Under the pieces are notes generated by a model that saw nothing but the letters and a program-made list of their open reading frames with translations, was not told the DNA's origin and did no database searches. Position numbers and translations under genes: made by a program. A stretch of 64,000 nucleotides of DNA from Capsulimonadaceae bacterium (lineage in GTDB: Bacteria; Armatimonadota; Armatimonadia; Armatimonadales; Capsulimonadaceae): the NCBI GenBank assembly GCA_031292625.1, contig JARLGU010000019.1, positions 186,001-250,000 of the forward strand. Direction: 5' to 3'. Shown here in pieces: positions 31,696-44,324 of this stretch. The stretch's first letter is position 1, and each line of letters opens with the position of its first letter.

Positions 31696-33144
31696 CTACT
31701 CGCCGCTGTCATCGTGCTGCAGCTCCACATCGACAAATTTGGCGTAATCCGGCATAAACCCGATTTTTACCGTTCCCGTAGGACCGTTTCGGTGCTTTCC
31801 GATAATAAGCTCGGTCTCCTCGATCGTTTCAGATTCCGGTTTCTCAAAAAACTCGCCGGCGTCGCGGGCTTCCTTCTGCTTATAGTACGCATCCCGGTAG
31901 AGGAAGCAAACCAGGTCGGCCTCGGCTTCGATCGATCCCGATTCACGGAGGTCCGAGAGCATCGGCCGCTTGTTGTCTCTGGTCTCCACGGCTCTCGACA
32001 ACTGCGAAAGCGCGATGACGGGCACCTGCATTTCGCGAGCGAGCGACTTCAGTCCGCGCGCGATCTCGCCGATTTCCTGGACCCTGTTCTCGGTCTTGCG
32101 GTGAGACCGCATGAGTTGGAGGTAATCCACGATGATCAGCGACAAGCCGTGTTCCGCGGCAAGGCGGCGGCATTTGGCCCGCATCGTCAGCGAACTGGTC
32201 TCGGTTGCGTCGTCGATATAGATCGGCGCGTCGTACATCTTGTCGACCGATTCGGCTAGGGACGCCCATTCCGCGTCGTTGAGATGTCCTGTTCGAACAC
32301 GATGGCTGCTTACGAGCGCTTCCGAGCACAGCATACGCAGAGCGAGCTGTTCCTTGGACATTTCCAGTGAAAAGATCGCGACTGTTTTCTTTTCCCTAAG
32401 TGCAACATGCTGGGCGATCGTCAAACAGAGCGACGTTTTGCCCATTGAAGGTCGCGCCGCAACGATGATCATGTCTGCCTTTTGCAGACCGGCTGTCCAC
32501 ATGTTGAGTTGCTTGAAACCGGTTGGCAGGCCGGACACCTCCGCCTTGAGCTGTCCGAGCTCCTCGGCGCGGTCATAGACAGTCACCAATAATGGCGAGA
32601 GCGGCGAGAAGTACTGATCCATCCGCCGTCGCGCCACGTTGAAGACCAGCCTTTCGGACTGGTCGATCAGGTCACTGACTTCTTGATCGGGCTCCGGACT
32701 GCGCGCCATGCCGACGATCTGCATCGCCGCGTCGATCAGCTTGCGCAGCATTGCCTTCTCTTCGACGATCTTGGCGTAGTGCTCTACATGTGCAGCCGAC
32801 GGCACCGCGTCGAACAGCGCGGTCAGGTAGCCAATGCCGCCGACCGCCGCTAGCTTATCGCGGGTACGCAGCTCATTTTGGAGCGTAATGAGGTCGACCG
32901 GCTGGTTGCGCGCGTTGATAGCGAGGATCGCCTCGAACAGAACTTGATGCGTTTCCCTGTAGAAATCCTCAGGCGTCAGCGTTTCGCCTGCTTTTTCAAC
33001 CGCCGCCGTCTCAAGGAGCATCGCTCCAAGGACCGACTGCTCGGCCTCGACATTATGAGGGGGCAGGTATCGCGCTAATACCTCGGAAGACTGCTCTTCG
33101 TTCCCGGAAACGCGGCCGGATAACGTTTCGTTTTGATCGGCCAT
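31696..33144 (-). CDS. dnaB: Replicative DNA helicase
   Basis: A 482-residue RecA-fold hexameric helicase. An N-terminal domain (about 27-130, beginning LPPHNVEAEQSVLGAML) binds primase and the C-terminal ATPase has Walker A ARPSMGKTSL (near residue 210), Walker B LIIVDYLQLM and RTGHLNDAEW. No intein is present. The order rplI-dnaB is conserved in many bacteria; here rplI lies 92 nt upstream. No good ribosome-binding site is visible before ATG 33144. Confidence 0.97.
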   Translation of the reverse strand: MADQNETLSGRVSGNEEQSSEVLARYLPPHNVEAEQSVLGAMLLETAAVEKAGETLTPEDFYRETHQVLFEAILAINARNQPVDLITLQNELRTRDKLAAVGGIGYLTALFDAVPSAAHVEHYAKIVEEKAMLRKLIDAAMQIVGMARSPEPDQEVSDLIDQSERLVFNVARRRMDQYFSPLSPLLVTVYDRAEELGQLKAEVSGLPTGFKQLNMWTAGLQKADMIIVAARPSMGKTSLCLTIAQHVALREKKTVAIFSLEMSKEQLALRMLCSEALVSSHRVRTGHLNDAEWASLAESVDKMYDAPIYIDDATETSSLTMRAKCRRLAAEHGLSLIIVDYLQLMRSHRKTENRVQEIGEIARGLKSLAREMQVPVIALSQLSRAVETRDNKRPMLSDLRESGSIEAEADLVCFLYRDAYYKQKEARDAGEFFEKPESETIEETELIIGKHRNGPTGTVKIGFMPDYAKFVDVELQHDDSGE

Positions 33145-33236: not shown

Positions 33237-33680
33237 CTATGCCGCGACTACGGTAACCTTGACATCGACGGTGACATCCCGGTGCAGCTTAACGGGGATT
33301 TGATATTCGCCGAGTTGCTTAATGGGGTCAAGGAGACTGATCTTGCGCTTGTCGAGCTTGACGCCAAGATCCTTGCCGATGGCATCCGCAATGTCCTGAG
33401 CCGTCACGCGGCCGTAGAGCTTGCCTTCGCCGCTGCGGGCATGGATGTTGACGACCTTGCCTTCGAGAGCCGCCTGATCCTTCTGGGCCTGCGTCAAGAT
33501 TTTCTCGCTCCGGCGCTCTTCAAGCGCGTTCTTCGCAAGCAGGTTCTTTAAGGCGCCGCCCTGTGCCTCCACTGCAAGTTTGCGCGGATACAGATAGTTT
33601 CGCGCATAGCCGTCACTCACCGTAATGACATCGCCCTGCTTACCAGTGTTCTGGATGTCCTGCAAAAGTATAACCTTCAT
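33237..33680 (-). CDS. rplI: 50S ribosomal protein L9
   Basis: A 147-residue protein, the normal length, with MKVILLQDIQNTGKQGDVIT, VSDGYARNYLYPRKLA and a C-terminal domain. It binds 23S rRNA at the L1 side of the 50S subunit. Start ATG 33680 gives the canonical N-terminus and has GGAG 11 nt upstream; an in-frame GTG at 33692 would overlap that site. A TATAAT box lies on the minus strand at 33737-33742, about 57 nt upstream of the start. Confidence 0.97.
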   Translation of the reverse strand: MKVILLQDIQNTGKQGDVITVSDGYARNYLYPRKLAVEAQGGALKNLLAKNALEERRSEKILTQAQKDQAALEGKVVNIHARSGEGKLYGRVTAQDIADAIGKDLGVKLDKRKISLLDPIKQLGEYQIPVKLHRDVTVDVKVTVVAA

Positions 33681-33736
33681 TGAATCGTTCACTCCTCGCT
33701 GTATTCTTGCTAGCTCAGTCCCAATGCCCCGGCGCC

Positions 33737-33791: not shown

Positions 33792-35261
33792 TCATTTGCT
33801 GAGCTCAAACCCAGCCGCGAAGCCTGGCGATTTTGGGATGTTTTCCATTCCGAGCCAGAGAGCCGTTCCTTGACCAAGCTGGATACGCTGCCGCAGGTCG
33901 AGCTTGAGATCGTTCGGATCGTAGAGATCCGCCGTAAGCACGTCCGTACCGTATAACTTGTAATCCAACCCAATGGCGACCTTGCTGTCGTAAACGCCCG
34001 CCCGCATTGAAGCCCGATCATTATACCGCTGACCTACCTGGAAGTTCAAATGGTTATCGCCGGTTAAATCGCGAACTCCCGCCCGAATATAGTTTTGCGT
34101 GCCATAAGGCGCACTCAGATCGAAATCCGTACGGAACTGATTCGCACGGAAATTCTCCCAAAATACGAGCTGAGACGAGAATTGGTTCTGGTGGCTCGTA
34201 TGTCCGCCCGAGAGTTCGTTGAGCCGGGTGATCAACTCGTTCGTATGCCCGGACGCGGCGGCGACGTTCTTCACGGTCGTACGCAAGTCGGCCTGCACGG
34301 TCTTATCGCCCGTAATCGCGCGAACATCTTCCTCAATGGCATTGAGTTTTTCGGTAGCCGTTTTTAAGTTAGCCAGCGTTTCCGTTAAATTCTGCAGCGC
34401 CTTGCCTTGATCGAGCGTTTCGGACGTCTGCGATAGAAGACGGTTGGCGTGCGTAACCAGTTGATTGATCTGCGACGATGCCGCATCCATATTCGTTATC
34501 ATCGCATCGATCTTCGCCCGGTTATGGTGCGTGATGCCGCTCATATCCTGCGTCGTCGAACTGACGTTTCTCAGCGATGTCTGCAAAATGGCGTTGTCAG
34601 CATGCAGCATCACTCCCATGTCGGTCGCAAGCTTTTTCGCCTGGAACGACGCCTCGTTGATGTTCTCAAACGTCCCGGTCATACCGCCCCTAAGCGCCGG
34701 ATCGCCTAGAAAGGAATTCGCGCTCTTAGCGGTAACCGTCAATTGATCGAGAAGCTTGTTGGTCTTGCCTGTCGTCACCTTGAGCTCATCGATAAGCCCG
34801 CCAGCCTGCTGCATCAAGACCGTAGCGTGATCCTGCAGCTCCGCGAAGCTAGCGCCCGCCGTACCAGGGATCGTCGATCCCGCGGAATAATAAGTTGCCC
34901 GGCGCGAAGCGGGCGCGATCCGCGACGGTACGAACTCGACGGTCGCGGTGCTGCCAAGCAAGCTCGAAACGATCGAAACACCCGCGTCCGTCGGGATCCT
35001 GACGCCCCTGTCGATCCGCGCGCGGACCAACGCCTGACCGTCGCCGGACAACTGGACGTCTTCCACGTGACCGATGAGAACTCCCGAGAATTCGACGTCG
35101 GAACCCGAGCGCACCCCCTGGGCATTCCGGAAATTAATCGTGACAAGGTATGACGCGCTGCCGATCTCCGCGTGCTTAAAGAAGACATAGCCGCCTATAA
35201 ACATAGCGGCGCCAATTAGGACAAGGATGCCGACTTGTAGTGCGGAGCGAGCTGTGTTCAT
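33792..35261 (-). CDS. mlaD: MCE-family lipid transport protein with C-terminal barrel-like domain (MlaD-like)
   Basis: A 489-residue protein: one N-terminal membrane anchor (about residues 8-29), an MCE domain (about 38-115; FRNAQGVRSGSDVEFSGVLI), a long alpha-helical region (about 155-355) rich in Asn/Thr heptads, and about 125 C-terminal residues of alternating beta-strands separated by short turns (NYIRAGVRD, LNFQVGQRYND, AIGLDYKLYG, LKLDLRQRIQLG, ALWLGMENI, FAAGFEL). E. coli MlaD has only the anchor and MCE domain at about 183 residues. The layout matches the trans-envelope MlaD described in Veillonella parvula, where the C-terminus is an outer-membrane barrel. AAGGA precedes the ATG. 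Confidence 0.88.
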   Translation of the reverse strand: MNTARSALQVGILVLIGAAMFIGGYVFFKHAEIGSASYLVTINFRNAQGVRSGSDVEFSGVLIGHVEDVQLSGDGQALVRARIDRGVRIPTDAGVSIVSSLLGSTATVEFVPSRIAPASRRATYYSAGSTIPGTAGASFAELQDHATVLMQQAGGLIDELKVTTGKTNKLLDQLTVTAKSANSFLGDPALRGGMTGTFENINEASFQAKKLATDMGVMLHADNAILQTSLRNVSSTTQDMSGITHHNRAKIDAMITNMDAASSQINQLVTHANRLLSQTSETLDQGKALQNLTETLANLKTATEKLNAIEEDVRAITGDKTVQADLRTTVKNVAAASGHTNELITRLNELSGGHTSHQNQFSSQLVFWENFRANQFRTDFDLSAPYGTQNYIRAGVRDLTGDNHLNFQVGQRYNDRASMRAGVYDSKVAIGLDYKLYGTDVLTADLYDPNDLKLDLRQRIQLGQGTALWLGMENIPKSPGFAAGFELSK

Positions 35262-35310
35262 ATTCGGTATTCCTTACCCCATCGACCCAGCGCTTGACAA
35301 GGGGATAGCT

Positions 35311-36105
35311 TCAACGGGTCGCCACCTCAATCGGACCAGTCGTCCGCCCTTCGATAAACTGCCTGACCGTCGGATCGGTGCTATTCCGGATCTCGTCGAC
35401 CGTGCCAAAAGCTCTCAACTGGCCCTCGTGCAACATCGCCACGTGATCGCTCATGCGAAAAACACTCTGGACGTTGTGCGAGACCACGATACTCGTAACC
35501 CCAACCTGATCGCGCGTGCGCATGATCTGCTCGTCGATCACCGACACGACGATCGGGTCTAATCCGCTTGTCGGCTCGTCGTAAAGCAGGATCGTCGGCT
35601 CCATTGCCAGCGCCCGAGCGAGGCCGACCCGTTTCGCCATGCCGCCGGACAGCTCGGCGGGATACATGTTCTCCGTTCCGGAAACCGCCGCAAGCGCAAG
35701 CTTCTCGGTGACAATCCTGCGGATCTCCTTCTCCGGCAACCGCTTGCGCCGGCGAAGGCCAAACGCGACATTCTCGAAAACGGTCAACGAGTCAAACAAG
35801 GCCGCGTATTGGAAGACCATTCCCATCGACTCGCGCACCTCGTTCAATTCCCGTTCGCGCAATCCGACAATGGGTTTGCCGCAAATCGTAATCTGTCCCG
35901 AAGTCGGTGTCGTTAACCCGCCCAAACAGTGAAGGAGCGTCGTCTTGCCGCAACCGGACATGCCCATCACGGAAAGGATCGCGCCTTTCTCCACGGACAG
36001 CGTTACGCCCTTCAGAATCTCCTTGCCGGGAACTCTGTATCTTACATCATCCACGACGATCGCGGGTCGATCGCCGCCCTGGACGTCCGAGGCCGTAGTC
36101 GACAA
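35311..36105 (-). CDS. mlaF: ABC transporter ATPase of the MCE/Mla lipid transporter
   Basis: A 264-residue ABC ATPase: Walker A GMSGCGKTTLL, Q-loop VFQYAALF, signature LSGGMAKRVGLARA, Walker B TILLYDEPTSGLDP and the H-loop SHNVQSV. The sequence GGMAKR in place of GGQ is typical of MlaF/Ttg2A. It drives lipid movement together with MlaE and MlaD. The start is TTG 36105 (with GAGAGG upstream); it lies between mlaE (24 nt) and mlaD (49 nt), on the same strand. Confidence 0.93.
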   Translation of the reverse strand: MSTTASDVQGGDRPAIVVDDVRYRVPGKEILKGVTLSVEKGAILSVMGMSGCGKTTLLHCLGGLTTPTSGQITICGKPIVGLRERELNEVRESMGMVFQYAALFDSLTVFENVAFGLRRRKRLPEKEIRRIVTEKLALAAVSGTENMYPAELSGGMAKRVGLARALAMEPTILLYDEPTSGLDPIVVSVIDEQIMRTRDQVGVTSIVVSHNVQSVFRMSDHVAMLHEGQLRAFGTVDEIRNSTDPTVRQFIEGRTTGPIEVATR

Positions 36106-36129
36106 CTAGCCCACCCTCTCGATCGCCGG

Positions 36130-36951
36130 TCAGGCAATCCTTCCGCCAAACATGACGTACGCCAAAAAGAAGTTGGCGATGTAAACAAGCACAATCGAGA
36201 TCACGACCGCGTTGGTCGTCGCACGCCCCACCCCAGTCGCGCCGCCTTTCGTCGACAGCCCCTCATGGCAACCGATCAGCGCGACGATCAGACCAAAGAC
36301 GATCGTCTTGACCATCCCCATGTAGAAGTCACGAGGCTCCGTGAAGGAACGGATCGAGTCCGGAAATGTCGACGACGGTACGCCCTGCCATACTGCGATC
36401 AGATAGCCGCCGAGCAGTCCGGCGCAATCCGCGACAAGACAGAGAATGGGCAGCATGACCAGACAAGCGAGTACACGCGGAACCACAAGATACTGAATAG
36501 GGCTCACGGCAAGAGAGCGCAGAGCGTCGATCTGCTCGGTCACCTTCATGGTCCCGATTTCCGCCGCGATCGCGCTTCCCGCCCTGGCCGCGACAACGAC
36601 GCCCACGAGCACCGGCGCGAGTTCCCGGCTCAGCGAGAGCGCGACAACCGCGCCAGTCAAACTTGCCGCGCCATACTGTATTAGAAAGTTGGAAAAGTAG
36701 AGCGCGATTACGGCAGCCGACGTAAATGTCGTAAGAGCCGCAATCGGCACCGAACGGACGCCGATCACCGCCATCTGCTGGATCAGATCCGCCGGATCGA
36801 TAGCTCCCTGGCACACAAACCGTGCGGCGCGCGCTACGAGGATCGATACCTCGCCCAGGTAGACTAGCGCGTCAGCCAGGACGTTGCGAACCAGTATGAT
36901 CGGCGTGAGCGCCATGCGCGCAACGGCGCCGTTAGGTTGAGTAGCTGTCAT
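36130..36951 (-). CDS. mlaE: Permease of the MCE/Mla lipid transporter
   Basis: A 273-residue inner-membrane permease of the MlaE/YrbE family with about five or six membrane segments. Family landmarks are GVRSVPIAALTTFTSA, LIQYGAASLTGAVVALSLSRELAPVLVGVVVAARAG in pieces, IGTMKVTEQIDALRSL and LPILCLVADCAGLLGGY. MlaE forms the membrane core of the ABC complex with MlaF and the MCE protein. It is first of the three mla genes and 155 nt downstream of the outer-membrane protein gene on the same strand. Start ATG 36951 is preceded only by a distant CGGAG. Confidence 0.94.
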   Translation of the reverse strand: MTATQPNGAVARMALTPIILVRNVLADALVYLGEVSILVARAARFVCQGAIDPADLIQQMAVIGVRSVPIAALTTFTSAAVIALYFSNFLIQYGAASLTGAVVALSLSRELAPVLVGVVVAARAGSAIAAEIGTMKVTEQIDALRSLAVSPIQYLVVPRVLACLVMLPILCLVADCAGLLGGYLIAVWQGVPSSTFPDSIRSFTEPRDFYMGMVKTIVFGLIVALIGCHEGLSTKGGATGVGRATTNAVVISIVLVYIANFFLAYVMFGGRIA

Positions 36952-37106: not shown

Positions 37107-38597
37107 CTAGAACTTTACGCCGACTGCGGCAGTCGTGGTTTCATCCGCGTTCGAGGTGCTCGTGTCGGCCCCCTGAACATTTATGGTGCTGCTCAAGGAA
37201 ACGGAGACCTGTCCGGTGATATCGTGCGTCAACGCGAGCGTGTAGACCCGCACCCGATCCGCGAAGCCAAAGTACGTCTTGTCCTGGTACTTGCCGGTTA
37301 AGCGAGTGAACGGCGTCAGCTTCAAGTCGCCGCTCACCCCAAAGCTTGCGTCCGGATTATCCACGGAATCGGCCGCGCGCGTATCCACCGTATAATTCGT
37401 GGTAATCGCGAAGCATCCGAACGTTGTCGTGACGCCGACGCCTTTCCGGAACAGCGCGTGCGGGCACCCCGAGTCGTCCGGATTGGCGCAGTACGAGCCC
37501 GTCAACTTCAGCGGTCTGGCAATCTTAACGCTCGCCTCCGTTCCGACCGTCGTCAGATCGGAGGTGGCCGTGGTCGCGGTCGAGTCGTGCAGCCTAACAT
37601 CTCCGCTTACGGATAAATAGGGAGTGGGATCGGTATTCACGGTCAGGCTCTGCACCGTGTTGACCGTGTCCGCGTTTGTACGCTGCGTCATCGCCGCGAT
37701 AATCTTGGCGTCAGGTCCCGGCTTGAGGGTCGCGGAAAGCGCATCCGAGTACGAACTCGACGCATCCGTCGTCGATGTGGACGTCGACGCTTCGATCGCC
37801 AGTGGAGCGATCGGCGTCACCTTCGCGTCAATCGACGCCACATCCGTCCCTTTCTGGGGATCCAGAATGTTGTCGTTGCGGCTGTAGTTGCTGGTAATGC
37901 TGATGAACTGAACCGGATGCACGCCAAGCGAAAACTTGCTGACGAGGCTGTCCGGATGACGGTCCGTGCCGCAGTACGTCGACTGAGCGCTGAAGTCGTG
38001 GGTCTTCGTCTTGTCCGAGTAGCCAAGCGTGTCGGTGAGATTTACCGTCTGCGGCGCTCCTGACGTAACGTTCGCCGGATTATAGCTGGCGGTGGACGCC
38101 AGCGTAAGCCCTTTCGAACTCTTCCAGGAACCGTCGAGGGCCAGGCTCATGGGAGATTTATGCCCCCCGGTCACACCAGCGTAGCCAAGCTTCGCATTGA
38201 TCGCGCCGTCTCGCATTCCAAACAGACGCACGCTATAGGGGGAATTCAAAGCTGGCTGCCGCGTTTTGACGCCTGTCTTTTCGTACTTGTAGCGTATAAC
38301 CACCGTCTTATAGTCGGGTAGCGCGTTCTTAAACGTGATCGTTCCCTGCGACGCGTCCGCCGAGTATTCAAGCAGCGAGGAAAGCAACTCGCCGTTCACG
38401 GTGACAGTCGCCGAGGACGCGACGATCGGATACTTCGTCACGGAGTAGCTCGTCTGCTGGTTCGCGGTCACGAACGTCTCCTGCATCCACGTCTGTCCAG
38501 CGCGCGCCGCCGGGCACTGAGTAGCGATCATCGCAACAGCGCCAACCAAGATCAGGAAGTTTGCCGAAAATGGGAAGGTGAGTCCAAGGCGTCTCAT
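37107..38597 (-). CDS. Predicted outer-membrane beta-barrel protein
   Basis: A protein of about 496 residues with a signal peptide (PFSANFLILVGAVAMIATQC, then ARA-GQ). After an N-terminal Ig-like domain (about 35-110) come many amphipathic strands rich in Thr, Ser and Asp with alternating hydrophobic residues. The last residues, AVGVKF, end in Phe, the recognition feature of BamA-inserted barrels. ATG 38597 was preferred over an upstream in-frame ATG at 38702, because it begins the signal peptide. It sits next to mlaEFD and an HtrA protease. The specific family is unknown. Confidence 0.7.
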   Translation of the reverse strand: MRRLGLTFPFSANFLILVGAVAMIATQCPAARAGQTWMQETFVTANQQTSYSVTKYPIVASSATVTVNGELLSSLLEYSADASQGTITFKNALPDYKTVVIRYKYEKTGVKTRQPALNSPYSVRLFGMRDGAINAKLGYAGVTGGHKSPMSLALDGSWKSSKGLTLASTASYNPANVTSGAPQTVNLTDTLGYSDKTKTHDFSAQSTYCGTDRHPDSLVSKFSLGVHPVQFISITSNYSRNDNILDPQKGTDVASIDAKVTPIAPLAIEASTSTSTTDASSSYSDALSATLKPGPDAKIIAAMTQRTNADTVNTVQSLTVNTDPTPYLSVSGDVRLHDSTATTATSDLTTVGTEASVKIARPLKLTGSYCANPDDSGCPHALFRKGVGVTTTFGCFAITTNYTVDTRAADSVDNPDASFGVSGDLKLTPFTRLTGKYQDKTYFGFADRVRVYTLALTHDITGQVSVSLSSTINVQGADTSTSNADETTTAAVGVKF

Positions 38598-38731
38598 ATC
38601 TGCAGTGTTAGAAAAGCGATCGAACGGATTGTTGCGGATATTTTTGTCGGCCACGGATATTTTTACGAAATGTCGGGCGTGCCGAAAAAGGCCGGCCTCC
38701 AAATTGAAGGCCGGCCCGCCATTCGCGGCGA

Positions 38732-40661: not shown

Positions 40662-43600
40662 ATGATTGGAATATCCGCCAGACAGCGTTGTCACTCGCAA
40701 ATCCGCCGCTTCGCCGGAACGTCCTCTCGCGTTTCCGCAATCGCTCGCTTCCTGCCTACGGTCTGGAAGCGGATATTCGTTGTCGCAGCTGCGATGGCGC
40801 TCTGCGGATTTGCAGCCGCCGCGGTGCGAGCCGATGCCGGATTACCGCCGGAAGGCGACTTGACCCTTCAACCCAGAGACGGTCTCGGCTTCGACATCGT
40901 GAGGCGCGGCCAGGTGATTGCTCCGATTCGCTTGTCGTCGAACGGCCTCATTACGGCAGCCCAGACGCATCGAGAGGGAGCCGCCCTTGTCTTTACCGGG
41001 CTCAAGTGCAGCGATCCTGCCGCGGCGAGCTTCGCGGCCACGGACTTTGTCCGCGTAGAGCCCGCGACCAACACAGCCGGATCGCCAGCGAGCGCGCACG
41101 AATGGACGATCCGCTTCAAGCTCACGCTCGACGCGTTCGACCGCGCGAAGTGGCAGGCGGATTGCCCAAACGCGCCCTTCCATTTCCTCACGTGCAGCCT
41201 GCCGAGCGCAACGGTCTGGAATCAGCGCGGCTGGCTCAACGCGACGCCACTCGACGACCCGTTCCCCCTCCTGGGCGACGTGCACGCCGGCTCGCCCGAA
41301 ATCAGCTCTCTCTGGGACCGCAACTGGAGCTACATCTGTCCATTCGGCGGATCGCCTATTCCAATGCTCGGCCTCTGGAACCCGCGAGGCAAACTTTATG
41401 TCGGCTACGATTTTCAGGACGCCCGCGCGCACGATCAGTCCGACCGGTACATCGCGGGAGCCTATTGCTGGACGCAGGGCGATGCGAAGAGTTTCATCAC
41501 GCTCGCTACGCCGTTTGGCGGTCTCCGCTACGGCCAACTGCTTTTCCCGCAGGCAGGTGACGTCGTACAATCGCACTTCAACCTGATCGTCGACACCGAT
41601 CTGCCGGACACGGCGGATCCGAACGAGCGCTTTCAAAGCCGTCTCTTCGCCCGCTATGCGAGCAGTCTCGCTCCCGCACCGTCTGAAAACGACCTGACCT
41701 GGATCCCTGGGTCTGTTCGTCTTGCCGACTTTCCAAAAGCGCCGGGGCTCGGCCTGTTCGGAAAGGAAGGCGAAACACACTACACCGAGGCGAATTCCAC
41801 CATGCTGACAGGCTGGCGGGGCCACGAAGAGATGCCGGTGGAAGCGGCCCTGCACAGCGGCGACCAAATCGCGATTCAAAAGGCTCGCCAGCAAGTCGAC
41901 GAGTTGCTCACAACCTACGCGCGGCACACAATAATTGACGGAGAAGACTGCCTCTTCTGGCCGCAACCGTTGACCGGTTCGTGGAAGCCCGACTTCGGCG
42001 GCGAGGCGGTCAAGACAATCCACGAAACGCCCGGATGGTACGGCGCGCGAGTAATCGTCGAGCTTTACCGCTACGACCGTGCGAACGGGGTTCCGGACCC
42101 TCGATACTTGGCAGCGATCGATTCGATTTACAACTGGACCAAACACTTCGTCTGGACTCGGAACGAATTCGCGGACGTTCCCTCGTCGCCGTTCGCGATC
42201 GGCGACACGCTTTCGACGGCTTTCCTGATCGATTACTACTACACATTCAAGGACGATCCCTTGCGTTCAGCCAGGGCGGCGCGGGCGCTCGAACTGGCCG
42301 ATAACATCATCTGGCGCTATTCCCCGGTATGGGCAATGGATTCCGACCGGTACGACGATGCCATCGACGGCTCGTTCCTCCTTGAGCCCAATAGCGGCCG
42401 CGACTGGGCGGGACTGGCCTGCTCGAACGAAGTGGCGTGGTGTATCGACTCGATGACCCAGGTGTACGTCAACACCGGCGATCCGCGTCTGCGCTACTAC
42501 CTGCGCGGGACGTTGCAAAGATGGCCGCAGCTTTACCGGCCGCAATATCACCCATCGCTCGCTCAGTACGACCACAAGTCGACCACCGAAGGGTTTGGCC
42601 TATTCGACGGCGCCGGTCCTGGCCGGGGCGGGCGCTACGCCTACGGAGCCGCGGACGGCTTTCCGCAGGAGTATCCAGTCGGCGCATCCAAAATGCGCGT
42701 CGTTGCCGGCGCCCGCGCGGCGATCACCTTTTGCAAGGATGGGCTGAAAGCCGATATCGCCGATTACCGTACCGACGGTCGCGGGCACTGTTCCTTCCGC
42801 ATAATCGCTCAAACGTCCGAACCGTTCGACATAACGTTCTCTTATCCAGAAGTTGACATTTCGGCAACTACCGTATCCGTGAACAGCGCGGGCCACGACA
42901 AACCGTTGCCAGAATCTGAAATCCGCCGTCCCGCGTCCGCGCCGAGCTCGTTATACTTGAACGGTTTGCGCGCCGGCGACATCGTGACCATCGGCCCGTT
43001 AGCGAAAGGCATTCCGGTCGAGCCGCTGACCACGATTGCCGGTTCTCGCCCCGACGCGCTCTCGGAGGTTGCCCAGAGCGCCGGGTTTAGGGCGATTTCG
43101 CTTCCGGGCGACACGGAGCTGACCAGGAACTGGGACGACCTGAGCTCGTTTGCGGGTCTGATCGAAGGCGAGCGGTGGGCATACGGTATCCCGTATGTTC
43201 AGACGGATCGTGCGACGAGCAAGCCCGTGCGCCTTAGCGCCGCTGGCGCCAGCGGCCTGTTCATCGTCTACTCCGCAAACGACGTCTCCGTACAAGCGCC
43301 GCTTGCCCTTCTCTCAAACGGCAAGCGACTTGCGCTCTCGGGGCATCCGATCCGTGCCTGGCAAGGATGGCCGCCGATCTTCCATCGGTCGATATTGCTC
43401 GACCACGTCACGCTGGCACGCGGAGACACGTTAGCGGAGATCGATCCCAACGGAACGCTTCTGATGGCCGCAACGGCTCTCACTGCGAGCGATGCGGCGA
43501 CAGAGGCAATCGTGGAGCATCTGAAAGCGCCGGGGGAGGCTTACCGGAAGGAAGCCGCTGGAGAAGCGGCAATGCGCGAGCGGGCAAAGCGGTTCGCGGC

Positions 43601-44324
43601 CGTTCGCCAGGGGAGCATAGCGATCATCCCCGATGACGCAGCCGGCGCAGCCTCGGCGTTCCTCCACCGCACGGGCCTCTATGACAAAAGCGTCCCCCTG
43701 ACGTGCACGCAACTAATCGATCCCGCGAAGTTCAGCGCGGCGCGATTTCCTCTCGCTGTCGCTCTTGGGGAGGAAGAATACATTCGTACCGTCAGGACAC
43801 AAGGAGATGCGCGAGAAGCGCTCATCCGCTATCTGCACGAAGGCGGAACGCTCTTAGTCCTGGCAAGCGGCCCGTACCCGCTCTATTATGCTGTAGATAT
43901 GCAACCTGGCGGCAAGAAGACGCAGCAAGCGGCGCCCCTCCTGAGAGAACTCGGCATGCCGATTGGCAACGCCTATGAAACGCCCCCTCCCGGTCTGCTG
44001 GTTAAGCGCGCCGATAGCGGGAATATTCTCGAAAACATCCCCGCCGAGATGCCTTACCCCGAAGGCGACGCGCGGCTTCGTTCGATCGACCGGGAAAAAC
44101 TCCCGCCGAACGCGCAATACGAGCCGCTCCTCTCGGTGAGCGATGCGAACGGCCGCAACTACGGGGACGCCGCTTGCCGAATGCAGTTCACGTCCGGCCC
44201 CGCGAGCGGCGGCGCGGTCGTCTATATGTGGTCAACCCTGAGCGCATCCGCAAATGGCGACGTAATCCTCGGCGATATCATCGCGTATGCGCTCAAGCAG
44301 ACGAAGCTGCTCGCCGCAAGGTAG
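40662..44324 (+). CDS. Large secreted protein, putative (alpha/alpha)-toroid enzyme
   Basis: A 1,220-residue protein with a signal segment (VWKRIFVVAAAMALCGFAAA) after a long N-terminal extension, so the true start may be further in than 40662. A beta-rich region (about 60-340) is followed by a helical region (about 370-700; DSIYNWTKHFVWTRNEF, AFLIDYYYTFKDDP, ARALELADNIIWRY) like (alpha/alpha)6 glycosidases, then beta domains and a C-terminal Rossmann-like segment (RQGSIAIIPDDAAGAA, EGGTLLVLASG) recalling glutamine-amidotransferase/ThuA-type folds. I cannot assign a family. Exported enzyme acting on polysaccharide is the most likely role. Confidence 0.65.
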   Translation: MIGISARQRCHSQIRRFAGTSSRVSAIARFLPTVWKRIFVVAAAMALCGFAAAAVRADAGLPPEGDLTLQPRDGLGFDIVRRGQVIAPIRLSSNGLITAAQTHREGAALVFTGLKCSDPAAASFAATDFVRVEPATNTAGSPASAHEWTIRFKLTLDAFDRAKWQADCPNAPFHFLTCSLPSATVWNQRGWLNATPLDDPFPLLGDVHAGSPEISSLWDRNWSYICPFGGSPIPMLGLWNPRGKLYVGYDFQDARAHDQSDRYIAGAYCWTQGDAKSFITLATPFGGLRYGQLLFPQAGDVVQSHFNLIVDTDLPDTADPNERFQSRLFARYASSLAPAPSENDLTWIPGSVRLADFPKAPGLGLFGKEGETHYTEANSTMLTGWRGHEEMPVEAALHSGDQIAIQKARQQVDELLTTYARHTIIDGEDCLFWPQPLTGSWKPDFGGEAVKTIHETPGWYGARVIVELYRYDRANGVPDPRYLAAIDSIYNWTKHFVWTRNEFADVPSSPFAIGDTLSTAFLIDYYYTFKDDPLRSARAARALELADNIIWRYSPVWAMDSDRYDDAIDGSFLLEPNSGRDWAGLACSNEVAWCIDSMTQVYVNTGDPRLRYYLRGTLQRWPQLYRPQYHPSLAQYDHKSTTEGFGLFDGAGPGRGGRYAYGAADGFPQEYPVGASKMRVVAGARAAITFCKDGLKADIADYRTDGRGHCSFRIIAQTSEPFDITFSYPEVDISATTVSVNSAGHDKPLPESEIRRPASAPSSLYLNGLRAGDIVTIGPLAKGIPVEPLTTIAGSRPDALSEVAQSAGFRAISLPGDTELTRNWDDLSSFAGLIEGERWAYGIPYVQTDRATSKPVRLSAAGASGLFIVYSANDVSVQAPLALLSNGKRLALSGHPIRAWQGWPPIFHRSILLDHVTLARGDTLAEIDPNGTLLMAATALTASDAATEAIVEHLKAPGEAYRKEAAGEAAMRERAKRFAAVRQGSIAIIPDDAAGAASAFLHRTGLYDKSVPLTCTQLIDPAKFSAARFPLAVALGEEEYIRTVRTQGDAREALIRYLHEGGTLLVLASGPYPLYYAVDMQPGGKKTQQAAPLLRELGMPIGNAYETPPPGLLVKRADSGNILENIPAEMPYPEGDARLRSIDREKLPPNAQYEPLLSVSDANGRNYGDAACRMQFTSGPASGGAVVYMWSTLSASANGDVILGDIIAYALKQTKLLAAR

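Follow-up and report, generated by a model that had tools for sequence, protein, structure and literature searches.

A Veillonella-type mlaEFD locus in an Armatimonadota genome, encoding a long MlaD with a predicted C-terminal barrel

An mlaEFD locus without MlaA or MlaC

We analysed a window of 64,000 nucleotides, the whole stretch of DNA presented above, from an Armatimonadota genome of 5.77 Mb (65 contigs, 96% complete). At its centre lie three mla genes, two conserved neighbours outside the proposed machine and, upstream, a gene for a putative outer-membrane protein:

36130..36951, minus strand: mlaE, ABC permease, 273 residues (PF02405, E 2.2e-77; TIGR00056, 240 bits, above cut-off)
35311..36105, minus strand: mlaF, ABC ATPase, 264 residues (ABC_tran, E 2.9e-32)
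33792..35261, minus strand: mlaD, long form, 489 residues (MlaD/MCE, PF02470, E 1.5e-12, residues 37-111)
33237..33692, minus strand: rplI, ribosomal protein L9 (Pfam)
31696..33144, minus strand: dnaB (Pfam)
37107-38702, minus strand: putative outer-membrane protein, 531 residues; start resembling a signal peptide, many short stretches that look like strands, terminal F

The three mla genes are separated by 24 and 49 bases, and rplI, then dnaB, then purD follow downstream of mlaD. The open reading frames match exactly the MlaEFD locus at 33792-36951 and the 489-residue MCE protein that a first-pass annotation had read from the DNA, and Pfam agrees with both assignments. Profile searches of the whole genome identified this MlaE as its single MlaE and the long MlaD as its single MCE protein (PF02470). 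The top NCBIfam match of MlaF is NF008809 (MlaF), at a score under that model's equivalog cut-off, and MlaD reaches 55.9 bits against the E. coli-type MlaD equivalog TIGR04430, below the curated cut-off of 135. MlaD was matched in 58 of 61 genomes searched. Elsewhere in the window, a putative secreted protein of 1220 residues (40662-44324, plus strand) has no Pfam or NCBIfam match.

The first-pass annotation saw no mlaA, mlaB or mlaC beside these genes. For mlaB this holds at the locus, where none was seen, while for mlaA and mlaC the absence extends to the whole host genome: profile searches that recovered the positive controls in E. coli and Caulobacter found neither MlaA nor MlaC, and hence no such pair at a distance from the locus. 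The same genome carries genes for LpxC, an Omp85 protein and TamB less than 8 kb from one another on contig 62, which marks the host as a lipopolysaccharide-type diderm. In V. parvula, Mla has TamB as its counterpart.

Predicted architecture of MlaD

AlphaFold2, run on full-length MlaD with a 36-sequence alignment, returned all four parts that had been proposed from the sequence, in the proposed order of anchor, MCE domain, helical stalk of about 200 residues and C-terminal strands:

35169..35258, minus strand: inner-membrane anchor helix, MlaD residues 2-31 (AlphaFold2 helix)
34866..35150, minus strand: MCE domain, residues 38-132 (pLDDT mostly 93-97)
34212..34847, minus strand: helical stalk, presumed tunnel wall, residues 139-350 (AlphaFold2 helices, mostly pLDDT 37-77)
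33798..34178, minus strand: ten-stranded beta-barrel domain, presumed to lie in the outer membrane, residues 362-488 (pLDDT 94-98)

By Foldseek, the MCE domain resembles the E. coli MlaD core 5uw8, with a TM-score of up to 0.85 by target. The stalk was predicted with low confidence, as is that of V. parvula MlaD. In each of its four helical stretches the hydrophobic moment is highest at 100-105 degrees, and the 212 residues of the stalk would measure about 32 nm if straight, a length sufficient to span the periplasm.

The C-terminal domain was modelled as a confident ten-stranded barrel rather than as helices, and all ten strands reappeared when it was folded by itself (mean pLDDT 95.3, pTM 0.85). 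Hydrophobicity alternates along these strands with a score of 3.55, compared with 1.68 +/- 0.39 for shuffled sequences, and 0 of 20,000 shuffles reached the observed value; strand limits in this test come from the AlphaFold2 model, so the result supports the barrel without being independent of the model. The nine strand residues that are invariant or nearly so (R377, D379, G395, Q408, R420, G422, G431, G471 and G484) all fall on the polar face, an arrangement that suits a barrel whose polar interior is conserved and whose lipid-facing exterior varies. When every strand position is averaged, the two faces differ in variability only as a trend (p 0.08 in Armatimonadota; 0.39 with Negativicutes added). 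Outer-membrane barrels typically end in an aromatic residue. The 'membrane-protein-like tail' described on first pass lacks it, its end reading ...GFELSK.

Foldseek matches to the domain include a designed 10-strand transmembrane barrel (8uzl), invasin, intimin, KdgM, porins and OmpA, with modest scores throughout (best E 6.7e-4). The list also contains soluble barrels that bind lipids or pigments (CpeS lyase, Ycf58 and Rv2717c; 4tq2, 3bdr and 2fr2, E 0.003-0.017). These matches, together with the lack of a terminal aromatic residue in most chains, would suit a soluble, calycin-like lipid-binding barrel sitting atop the tunnel and passing lipid on, either into the outer membrane or to a separate partner there, such that MlaD crosses the periplasm without inserting into the outer membrane. 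We consider this arrangement unlikely: many of the other top matches are transmembrane barrels, every strongly conserved strand residue lies on the polar face with the hydrophobic face being the more variable, and in V. parvula MlaD, which has 419 residues, about 150 of them in the helical region, and a barrel of ten strands, the homologous domain was recovered in outer-membrane fractions (PMC10665443). By analogy with that protein, we infer a barrel inserted in the outer membrane at the end of a hexameric tunnel.

Homology to the MlaD barrels of Negativicutes

The first-pass annotation had likened the protein to Veillonella MlaD, and profile comparison upheld the likeness. When a profile was made from the C-terminal domains of Armatimonadota alone, it matched 18 Negativicutes MlaDs at E-values of 9e-14 to 7e-26, values that refer to a small search set. 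Veillonellaceae were represented by two of these matches in place of V. parvula's own sequence, namely an uncultured member (L064, 4e-18) and Colibacter massiliensis, now Megasphaera coli (L079, 3e-14). In a profile-profile comparison, the Armatimonadota and Negativicutes barrel domains aligned over 122 columns with a probability of 99.8 and an E-value of 1.3e-27. At the level of sequence, the two groups of barrels are homologous over their full length.

The distant MlaDs were drawn from loci found through an MlaE search. In the same locus set, the barrel profile matched none of 24 other MCE frames, for instance from Acidobacteria and Omnitrophota, a few of which are cut by contig ends. Some of these frames, from Elusimicrobia and Deltaproteobacteria (L089, L109 and L114), end in a motif resembling that of divergent MlaDs with a barrel, and the profile may have overlooked them. 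It matched L059, L071, L077, L099, L106, L115 and L119 more weakly; these come from a Cyanobacteria-labelled genome, from Margulisiibacteriota/WOR-1, from Deferribacteraceae and from Deltaproteobacteria, and in some of them a long insert separates strands.

Conservation across Armatimonadota

The barrel domain is present in 239 of 251 Armatimonadota genomes and in 176 of the 179 better ones. MlaA was found in none of the 251, and MlaC in none above the cut-off, with one weak partial match. Most of 20 Armatimonadota neighbourhoods preserve the gene order mlaE-mlaF-mlaD-rplI-dnaB-purD, and this recurrence is a sign of vertical inheritance. We considered a functional tie between the mla genes and rplI-dnaB-purD, and took the arrangement as linkage to housekeeping genes, useful only as such a sign.

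The C-terminal end of the barrel

Negativicutes and Armatimonadota barrels differ at their last residue. Whereas 15 of 16 Negativicutes MlaD barrels end in F, just one of 28 Armatimonadota MlaDs (loci L003-L031; 33792-33812 in the window) ends in an aromatic residue and 22 end in R or K, commonly within the pattern G-[VIL]-x-[WYFL]-x-[RK]. In the host genome, F is the last residue of an Omp85 protein, a patatin-Omp85 protein, TamB and the window's 531-residue protein; the altered end is therefore peculiar to MlaD rather than general in the genome. One tentative reading, which we hold to be improbable, is that the barrel in Armatimonadota no longer follows the standard signal for outer-membrane assembly, R or K standing at the terminus and an aromatic or large hydrophobic residue at the third position from the end. 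Such a barrel might insert differently, for example held and threaded by its own inner-membrane-anchored stalk, or might sit partly in the membrane. The near-constant lack of the terminal aromatic residue is possibly a new detail.

A proposed transenvelope lipid transporter

We observed the genes, their domain order and their conservation across the phylum, along with the predicted barrel, its homology to Negativicutes and the absence of MlaA and MlaC. The last three lend model- and sequence-based support to the self-contained, envelope-spanning bridge that the first-pass annotation envisaged. The locus very probably encodes a minimal Veillonella-type MlaEFD lipid transporter that has been inherited vertically. 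Its inner-membrane ABC engine would consist of MlaE and MlaF. By analogy with E. coli and Veillonella, six MlaD chains would be seated on this engine by their anchors and MCE ring; the helices would build a hydrophobic tunnel across the periplasm, and the ten-stranded C-terminal barrels would lie in the outer membrane. Phospholipids could then travel along one continuous protein, with no MlaC shuttle and no MlaA. By the same analogy, the transporter would serve in the upkeep of outer-membrane asymmetry, probably by retrieving phospholipids inwards.

The closest described system is that of V. parvula (PMC10665443), which shares the mlaEFD-only gene set, the domain order, the ten-stranded C-terminal barrel and the lack of MlaA and MlaC. 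It differs from the present locus in MlaD length (419 residues, compared with 489 here), in the stalk (about 150 compared with about 210 residues), in the last residue of the barrel (F in Negativicutes, R or K in Armatimonadota) and in the genes that follow mla (tolC-tamB there, rplI-dnaB-purD here). E. coli MlaFEDB shares MlaE, MlaF and an anchored MCE domain with the locus, but its MlaD is a 183-residue protein with a short helical end and no barrel, and works with MlaC and MlaA, both missing here. Other MCE proteins, PqiB, LetB (YebT) and mycobacterial Mce1, form a tunnel through the periplasm. PqiB and LetB carry several MCE domains per chain and Mce1 is a heterohexamer; in none of them does a barrel end each chain.

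MlaD is also similar to mycobacterial Mce chains, in sequence as well as structure, as might be expected of an MCE importer that, like Mce1 or Mce4, takes up nutrients or lipids of another kind instead of keeping up asymmetry. We judge such a role very unlikely in a genome with a single MlaEFD set and lipopolysaccharide synthesis (LpxC), and for a system homologous to that of V. parvula, where mutants have disrupted lipid asymmetry. Least probable of all is that the long MlaD acts with a separate outer-membrane protein such as the 531-residue putative barrel, whose gene lies 155 bases upstream of mlaE on the same strand and whose product has a signal-peptide-like start, a terminal F and no Pfam, NCBIfam or plasmid match; we dropped this candidate because a recognisable homologue appears in 0 of 20 relatives' mla neighbourhoods, while mlaE-F-D-rplI-dnaB-purD persists.

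The preferred reading, a Veillonella-type transporter, makes the locus a well-supported further case of a barrel-bearing MlaD, the general claim having been made in 2023. The first-pass annotation implied that the design would be newly extended to another diderm lineage; Grasekamp et al. had already reported barrel-bearing MlaD across diderm Terrabacteria and called the design common (PMC10665443), which takes away that novelty. The main text of their paper does not name Armatimonadota (PMC10665443), and a search for literature linking Armatimonadota or Armatimonadetes with MlaD returned nothing relevant. What the phylum adds is a three-gene transenvelope design that is near-universal in one more deep diderm lineage lacking MlaA and MlaC. 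This pattern agrees with the idea that the six-part system of E. coli arose later, as an elaboration within Proteobacteria. It opens no new question, and it supplies a large and diverse set of barrel-bearing MlaDs for structural work.

Variant loci

Two of the exceptions to the common form are genomes of one family (G054 and G143; loci L141 and L143). There, the MlaD frame runs to 507-519 residues and a proline-rich, unstructured-looking tail replaces the barrel. An Armatimonadota family with a barrel-less MlaD is possibly a new detail as well. At L052/L139 (G059), mlaD and purD are split into several frames, perhaps through sequencing errors. A further arrangement was seen at L051/L138 (G007, from the same order), where two adjacent MCE genes follow mlaEF, one encoding 135 residues (anchor and MCE domain only) and the other a full-length protein of 571 residues; these two proteins might form a mixed ring.
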